Assembly (NCBI GenBank): GCA_031261345.1
Contig: JAISKC010000051.1
Span: 1-64,000, forward strand
Reading direction: 5' to 3'
Source of the DNA: Eubacteriales Family XIII. Incertae Sedis bacterium
Lineage (GTDB): Bacteria; Bacillota; Clostridia; Peptostreptococcales; Anaerovoracaceae
Length of the DNA stretch: 64,000 nt
The stretch's first letter is position 1. Every line of letters begins with the position of its first letter. A model generated the notes under the pieces. It was given only the letters and a program-made list of their open reading frames with translations. It ran no database searches and had not been told where the DNA came from. The translations under genes and the position numbers were made by a program. Below, in pieces: positions 3,001-3,391 of the stretch.

Positions 3001-3391
3001 GAAAATCTATTTCACTGTCATTACCGTCATTACCGTCATTACTGTCATTACTGTCATTGCGGGCCTGACCCGCAATCCAGTCCTTATTACTATCGCTGTC
3101 ATTGCGGGCCTGACCCGACCTGTGCTGGGACGAACCATCAGGTGAGTCGCAGTGAATCCAGTTCTTATCGCCATTTGTGGTTTCCGGCTCAGAGGCCGGA
3201 ATGACATCGGCGGCGGCAGAGGCGTTACCTAAATCCCCCCCCCCATTGCCAGAATCTGCCATTACTGAAGTAGGCAGCAATGTCATGACAAACAGAAGCA
3301 TGGCAACAAACCCAGTCATCGCCTTCCTGCCAAGATGCTTCCTCTTAGCACCCCACTTCACCTCTCGCTTCCCATCTTTAAAATTGTTCAT
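1..3391 (-). CDS. Large secreted surface protein, 3' end outside window (G10 tract in frame)
   Basis: The frame is open from the ATG at 3391 to the window edge, at least 1130 residues, checked codon by codon over most of its length. A strong ribosome site (GGGGGAAG) precedes the start. Residues 1-45 are a signal peptide: a basic stretch, then the hydrophobic core MLLFVMTLLPTSVMA. Residues 50-52 (GGG) come from a ten-G run at 3235-3244. Residues of about 60-125 are encoded by palindromic repeat modules and a 9-bp tandem repeat. The rest is rich in T, S, N, G and beta-type sequence; near the edge it has the style of DUF11-like adhesin repeats (LRLVIENAGNTFLGN). I infer an exported adhesin-like protein; no catalytic motif was seen. 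The C-terminal anchor is not visible. Confidence 0.85.
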   Translation of the reverse strand, partial: MNNFKDGKREVKWGAKRKHLGRKAMTGFVAMLLFVMTLLPTSVMADSGNGGGDLGNASAAADVIPASEPETTNGDKNWIHCDSPDGSSQHRSGQARNDSDSNKDWIAGQARNDSNDSNDGNDGNDSEIDFQSLDISDGSIFSALALLADEGLGALSGEDLVIGALAAPADVTLNSVTATNVAGASGDVYTYNTWTTSPATGDFRLNVNFQFANGIATLGDVKLKVKLTSAQAAFATSNAYVVTSSPANAYIDETNLAIDGDGNLSLNFKQGTSGSAGSVIIAFPFNHTLDGWLSGYTTTGETFANFEVFTESGGATGTATSVTVGSSATIRGSGVDLYSRTPAEHVLVGSDMTLQPRFFDRYTDEWRHEPNSIVTFTMDYPNGATVLDAVGGTVNTGNHTITWSYTADSVTGIIPHSASGWSSSPMAYVFMPTVRINFPASAFATVNDEDDVVLKLKSESYFVGKTEQYVITSDDYEFKVFNTDSVLAGIRMKNAAFQYSGGPHIIKNISTVSSGASALGNLGNGNMGLWNVGLKPIPNTCVIWRNNSDATKKINVFSVQARNGGTTPPSRIEFYVCNSDGSHAESKWPTSINLAFYSAYNISDLNLSNGQYIEMIKSYPQYNPDTGNIDALPVGASAGLVVNFTGFSDGKYPDGTLIGNGDELSWSLEGVWEGETKVEDFAGLAEYSYEPSTKISSMKYEGKDEQKIFYCAPVPSPTAQMHITSSTTVAPRDLMNVNLRFYNSTAGNPMGPRTVWENPTFVILPPDGLSFDPADNTNLVAYKPNDDVWSNDVEVSETTRNGRTVYIVTVKGELAALDSWSYIKDLKFTVKDDAPIGANTIASYRDEPTFNTERNGFVFATSETPNNLVPDNVIPFAGTVYRGFVSDTSLQSGGWDANVNTNFIGRPPSNGGTISFNVSPLPSVDVRAEMYDTEVTGDADPWKNVSSNVEVPTVLGDSAQMRLVIENAGNTFLGNLRLLDILPKIGDKLVLAPGTEKGSTWDAFMGAIDIQVENIKTEEIISGAALATAYPGFAVQYCKNNNPSINNGVVRTGTGGNFANDAAGDPTEAGSFFFTMGANKLPPGYRIILNFEITAPTSAALDDISAKAFNSFAYLYTNYNDASGNGADAK
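3017..3061 (-). repeat. 9-bp tandem repeat inside surface gene
   Basis: Five consecutive 9-bp units of the form GTCATTACC/GTCATTACT, the last one running into the palindrome at 3056. On the minus strand they encode repeated Asn-Asp-Ser/Gly triplets. The period is a multiple of three, so copy number changes would keep the frame. Confidence 0.85.
3053..3210 (-). repeat. Cluster of in-frame palindromic repeat modules
   Basis: Three modules in a row. ATTGCGGG-CCTGA-CCCGCAAT (3056-3076) is a perfect 8-bp palindrome. A composite module at about 3098-3161 begins with the same left half and is continued by a stretch that encodes HCDSPDG-SQHRSGQA on the minus strand. TTCCGGCTCAGAGGCCGGAA (3182-3201) is a third palindrome, coding for IPASEPE. 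All are read through in the surface protein frame. Close copies lie at 54755-54975 and 55366-55432. Confidence 0.85.
3235..3244 (-). repeat. G10 homopolymer tract (ON frame)
   Basis: Ten consecutive G on the coding strand begin 147 nt after the start codon of the left surface gene and encode three glycines plus the first base of an Asp codon. At ten G the frame stays open. Loss or gain of one G would stop translation early. A tract of the same length sits at the equivalent place in the gene ending at 50830. Confidence 0.9.

Follow-up and report, generated by a model that had tools for sequence, protein, structure and literature searches.

Phase variation through poly-G tracts is best known from Gram-negative pathogens, and several described systems share part of the arrangement analyzed here. 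For example, 29 poly-G/C loci of Campylobacter jejuni NCTC11168 have tracts at least seven nucleotides long (PMC4965091); as in the genome studied here, many homopolymeric G-runs lie in reading frames where frameshifts turn genes ON or OFF, but C. jejuni is Gram-negative, its target genes are different, and it is not known to contain a shared leader-tract cassette. The opa genes of Neisseria form a paralogous surface-gene repertoire in which each leader carries its own repeat and each gene is switched singly. This Gram-negative system uses a pentamer instead of a homopolymer and encodes small porin-like proteins, so the likeness is one of working only and no homology is claimed. In Gardnerella, G/C tracts of at least eight nucleotides are abundant (median of 20 per genome) and slipped-strand mispairing has been proposed (PMC11287997). 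Surface genes are among the tract targets there too (PMC11287997), but the Gardnerella tracts lie mostly upstream of open frames, whereas those described below lie mostly inside the 5' end of the frame, beside the signal peptide.

A precedent for replication slippage on the G-tracts of surface genes comes from the sortase-pilus loci bbr_0113 and bbr_1889 of Bifidobacterium breve (PMC9187656). In this Gram-positive gut commensal, a G10-G11 run lies within the first surface gene and its length determines if two open frames are joined, which is the arrangement found here. In B. breve, however, length heterogeneity was measured by deep sequencing (PMC9187656), while no population data exist for the present genome; in addition, B. 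breve has one or two pilus clusters per genome, in contrast to some 42 single surface genes with common leaders and other protein families. A search of the open-licence literature returned no report of a comparable gene set in a Clostridia-like bacterium. The principle is known, but a set as extensive and modular as this one is unusual. To our knowledge, its scale and its modular leader-tract-passenger architecture are new for this kind of bacterium: some 42 surface genes of a 2.4 Mb genome follow one plan, in which a leader runs into a G-run, stop traps close both wrong frames and the passenger is large and variable. We consider it very likely (probability about 0.87) that the G10 tract at the left end of the window is one switch in a genome-wide poly-G contingency set, with the reservation that switching itself is inferred in the absence of read- or strain-level data.

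Two tract-bearing surface genes in the window

The window is the whole stretch of DNA that was analyzed, 64,000 nucleotides long (contig C77, bases 1-64000), from a genome of 2,421,696 bases in 91 contigs. Its relevant features are:

2..3421, minus strand: left surface gene, with its ATG at 3391 or 3421, truncated by the contig end at base 1
3245..3391, minus strand: left-gene leader, with start codon and a signal peptide ending VMA, followed by DSGN
3235..3244, minus strand: left-gene G10 tract (C10 on the plus strand); the frame continues, ON as deposited
50830..55038, minus strand: right-gene passenger frame, with InlB B-repeats and a C-terminal FILTED domain
50863..51180, minus strand: right-gene FILTED domain, from the FILTED search
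55041..55050, minus strand: right-gene G10 tract, out of frame, OFF as deposited
55051..55198, minus strand: right-gene leader, with a signal peptide ending AMA

In the left gene, 147 nt separate the G10 run from the ATG at 3391, which has GGGGGA a short way upstream; an in-frame ATG at 3421 is an alternative start. Translation proceeds across the tract as ...LLPTSVMADSGN-GGG-DLGNAS... and meets no stop in 1140 codons up to the contig end, which cuts the gene and hides its C-terminus. These 1140 residues had no Pfam or NCBIfam match, and the FILTED domain was not found in them either, the gene being truncated before its C-terminus. The left-gene passenger also lacks a close relative, as the only matches among 61 genomes were its own genome and one weak match.

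In the right gene, 148 nt lie between the ATG at 55198 and the G10 run. The leader frame terminates a few codons past the tract, and the 1402-codon passenger frame is in a different register. This passenger contains Listeria-Bacteroides/InlB B-repeats and meets the criterion for membership of the FILTED family (NF052597; 72.1 bits against a cut-off of 40).

The initial annotation had described a G10 tract directly behind the signal peptide in each gene, 147 nt after the ATG with the frame kept open in the left gene and 148 nt after it in the right, with the two genes in opposite states; these statements hold in sequence and translation. It had further taken the identical length and position in two genes as an argument for contingency loci, which is weaker than it looked because tracts in the genome range from G8 to G11, with G9 rather than G10 as the most frequent length. 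The main evidence for the contingency reading is the gene family, rather than the match between the two window genes. Likewise, the excess of G-runs in the window alone is merely moderately unusual, and the genome-wide excess is decisive: the window holds 18 C-runs of five, three of six, none of seven to nine and two of ten, and its six overlapping G8 matches compare with a mean of 1.52 in dinucleotide shuffles (six or more in 3 of 100 shuffles).

An interspersed repeat, GGTCAGGCCCGCAATGACA, is present in 108 copies genome-wide at up to two mismatches (none in a reversed control), many of which are translated as part of surface genes, at sites that closely follow the tract. Two translated copies lie just behind the left-gene tract (3052-3072 and 3097-3117, minus strand), one lies behind the right-gene tract (54909..54929, minus strand), and another lies upstream of the right gene at 55361-55381.

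Leaders, tracts and passengers across the genome

The genome contains 42 runs of nine or more G (29 G9, 11 G10 and two G11), compared with about 6.3 expected from an order-1 Markov estimate over both strands, an estimate that is conservative because its source, the fetched sequence of this genome, includes the tracts. A count of overlapping matches, 57 in total, is consistent with these 42 runs. With 17 further runs of exactly eight G, the total of G8-or-longer tracts is 59, every one of which was inspected. In 30 of these a signal peptide (assigned by eye) is followed by the tract and a long open frame (class A; 27 among the runs of at least G9, plus three G8), and in 12 a start codon and 10-21 codons precede the tract, with the signal peptide behind it (class B). 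One sequence criterion of a contingency locus, a pure homopolymer of at least eight nucleotides towards the 5' end of a reading frame, is thereby satisfied. The initial annotation had proposed a search for further genes in which a run of at least eight G follows the signal peptide, and its outcome was positive. This family strongly supports the proposal that the tracts are selected contingency loci rather than products of chance or sequencing error, with switching itself still an inference.

Another six tracts each lie within a short open frame that precedes a distinct gene encoding a signal peptide (L044:5632, L048:7528, L052:5314, L053:6479, L054:7272 and L250:1502). An Rfam search of eight loci returned only a tRNA, so no known riboswitch accounts for this class. 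Translational coupling was considered and not adopted, as it fits at most two of the six loci (L053 and L250); at L053, one upstream frame would finish in an ATGA overlap with the gene start. The remaining 11 tracts comprise one in hsdS, one inside a surface gene with LRR/InlB-type repeats, one in a methionine synthase-like gene and eight without a clear role. In the type I restriction specificity gene hsdS (L049:6417-7532, minus strand; PF01420), a G9 run lies between the two halves and is in frame as deposited, making it a possible candidate switch for DNA methylation. The methionine synthase-like gene, recognized by eye, has an in-frame G8 (L255; G000:C28:43404), and whether this reflects chance or a switch is undecided.

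Most passengers are large surface proteins of the FILTED, InlB-repeat or LRR type, with further matches to LRR_5, adhesive-domain and LPXTG families, and an SdrD B-like match just under its cut-off. That the cell is Gram-positive is an inference from the LPXTG and FILTED matches and from the LexA box described below. The genome has 44 FILTED matches, 33 of which have a readable 5' end; the other 11 are either truncated at a contig end or lay outside the fetched sequence. Among the 33, 21 have a tract (in three of the counted genes it lies deeper in the open frame) and 12 do not, which is a point against the contingency reading.

The sequence behind the tracts is organized in a way that closes the alternative frames. 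Both wrong frames end within eight codons behind 35 of the 39 tracts that have a frame of at least 130 codons, as opposed to 16.7% expected from 36,215 codon-boundary positions inside the same passengers. This excess is clear, although shared flanks among paralogues leave perhaps ten independent flank types. These translations and stop traps show that tract length sets whether a full frame or an early stop follows, a second criterion of a contingency locus. The runs are pure even though glycine is encoded by GGG less often than by any of its other codons (10.2%). The idea that the run serves as a glycine linker was rejected, since most copies are out of frame.

Decay of the OFF genes into pseudogenes could be proposed as an alternative, given that 33 of the 42 class A and B genes are out of frame as deposited and that one passenger pair has a dN/dS of 0.84. 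Against this, the passenger frames of OFF genes are open for up to 2170 codons, and dN/dS is 0.14-0.39 in eight of the nine passenger pairs with finite values (it is undefined in two of the 11 pairs). Several of these low values come from pairs in which both genes are OFF; therefore, OFF genes are still selected as proteins, and the pseudogene explanation is all but excluded.

Tract length, deposited state and the proposed switch

Each leader, comprising a start codon and signal peptide, finishes in a pure G-run whose length sets whether the leader frame joins the long passenger frame or meets an early stop. Under the contingency reading, DNA polymerase is predicted to slip on the run at replication, gaining or losing one G, so that each gene would flip independently and reversibly and a population would come to display many surface coats. 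The position and purity of the runs, the frames, the stop traps, the selection on passengers and the length differences among copies are established from sequence alone; slippage, reversibility and phenotype are inferred, as is any selective reason, such as host antibodies, phages or changing ligands. The sequence criteria of contingency loci are satisfied, and the defining experiment on switching is missing.

As deposited, 9 of the 42 genes are ON, namely 4 of 30 in class A (the left gene of the window, L041, L058 and L064) and 5 of 12 in class B (L055, L037, L039, L254 and L259). The class A share is below one third (P 0.012 if genes are independent) and is not predicted by a free three-state model, which counts against the contingency reading. 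We interpret it as reflecting that nine is the most frequent length, whereas most class A genes are open at another length.

Class A leaders occur as groups of near-identical copies before unrelated passengers. For example, the leaders of L059 and L066 are 98.5% identical over 258 nt, whereas the DNA that follows them shows no similarity, and those of L032 and L063 are 96.8% identical over 371 nt and carry G9 and G11, respectively. The left-gene leader belongs to a group of three, its own G10 being accompanied by similar leaders before a G9 (contig C41) and a G8 (contig C29). Tract length is unequal in 9 of 14 similar-leader pairs, compared with five gap events in a total of 1,960 flanking columns; these pairs represent 11 of 33 close leader pairs plus the left gene's group of three, and they share members and are not independent. 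A further criterion of a contingency locus, that length varies among related copies more than the flanks do, is thus met for paralogues only, and the equal tracts in the other five pairs are another point against the contingency reading.

One alternative is that programmed slippage by RNA polymerase or the ribosome yields some full-length protein from every allele while DNA length stays constant. Long in-frame G-runs would suit this mechanism too, as would the retention of intact, selected passengers by OFF genes. However, the offset between leader and passenger frames varies by gene, so no single shift fits all; tract lengths are unequal among copies; and 9 of the 42 genes require no shift. 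We regard this alternative as very unlikely. The same gene-to-gene differences in offset led us to reject a programmed frameshift that always goes in one direction.

A second alternative holds that OFF genes are mainly a silent archive from which recombination reshuffles leaders and passengers into expressed copies, leaving the G-run secondary. Near-identical leaders before unrelated passengers (L059/L066) and the many contigs that end beside tracts are in its favor. On the other hand, nearly all copies come with a start codon and signal peptide of their own and, where no contig end intervenes, a full-length frame, and an archive gives no role to stop traps and tract purity. This explanation is unlikely as the main one, and it is possible that archive recombination operates alongside switching.

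A third alternative, that the tract lengths are sequencing or assembly errors in genes that are constitutively in frame, draws on the proneness of homopolymers to error and on the finding of deposited lengths that differed from the population (PMC9187656). Whatever the exact count, the existence and position of the runs and the stop traps stand, and errors would leave 42 runs and their clustering at signal peptides unexplained, making this very unlikely as well. If the contingency reading is correct, the poly-G design would account for the contig breaks beside tract genes and for the likely annotation of most of them as frameshifted, and existing metagenome reads would make within-strain surface diversity directly measurable.

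Related genomes and a LexA-type box beside some tracts

The comparison set comprised 61 genomes, this one included, with no second genome of the genus among them. FILTED proteins were found in 12 of the 61, this genome included, and none of 12 intact 5' ends of relatives' FILTED genes (from five genomes, among 20 fetched pieces) carried a G-run of six or more. When 393 genomes of the order were scanned for a signal-peptide end followed by G9, there were 21 matches in this genome compared with three in a reversed control. Any match was seen in 13 other genomes, and ten or more only in G350 and G382, both of genus g15, where the counts are partly overlapping matches of a single long run. G350 has four class A leaders with tracts of G13, G11, G9 and G9, one of them in frame, and similar early stops; thus, the leader-tract design is common to at least two genera of the family. 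The expectation in the initial annotation that tract lengths vary within the gene family therefore held among paralogous leaders of this genome and of a second genus.

Some tracts abut a GAACN4GTTC box, the LexA box of B. subtilis (PMC4234289). Only 35 such boxes occur in the whole genome, yet 8 of the 59 tracts are preceded by one at a distance of at most 3 nt, compared with about 0.004 expected from base composition (our own arithmetic for 59 tracts, with four offsets and eight fixed bases). Among six fetched relatives, the box abuts 7 of 70 tracts, all seven in genus g15 (G350 and G014). The loci are:

This genome: L031, L047, L048, L052, L053, L055, L258, L262
Relatives: L292, L304, L310, L319, L177, L189, L193

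Six of the eight box tracts in this genome come from a single group of paralogues whose passengers are LRR-type; the remaining two and the g15 tracts have little in common except the box. Relative to the likely start, each of the three reading frames is represented among the boxes; therefore, it is DNA and not peptide that is conserved. The box is absent beside both window tracts, and no recognizable SOS genes were evident by eye near the boxes at 12 loci. The genome has a single lexA, whose start is preceded by a near-box, GAACGGGTGTTT, at a distance of about 110 nt. Thus, the operator expected of SOS genes is present at these tracts, and evidence for LexA regulation is only indirect, through the lexA near-box. 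A bolder and merely possible reading, for which there are no LexA binding data, is that some of these genes are under a two-key switch with an SOS box in the leader adjoining the G-run, in which LexA at the box could block transcription until DNA damage or could alter slippage at the run. If true, this link would tie surface switching to the SOS response and stress.

One flank pattern searched against the GTDB contig collection returned 40 stretches, none of this leader-tract-passenger family (records of this genome were possibly excluded), and viral contigs matched neither the flank pattern nor the right gene's protein. Stretches of the type TTGACAAATGCCAAT-G10-TATCAT were seen in a rabbit Clostridia MAG (CANRHP; L104, L113 and L132) and a water deer MAG (JAGASX; L126 and L128), where the G-run resembles the spacer of a sigma-70-type promoter. 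Another rabbit Clostridia MAG (CANQNJ010000062.1; L111) has a lipoprotein-like leader, a G9 run and a 1734-codon open frame, an arrangement from which an analogous switch in another lineage is inferred on sequence alone.
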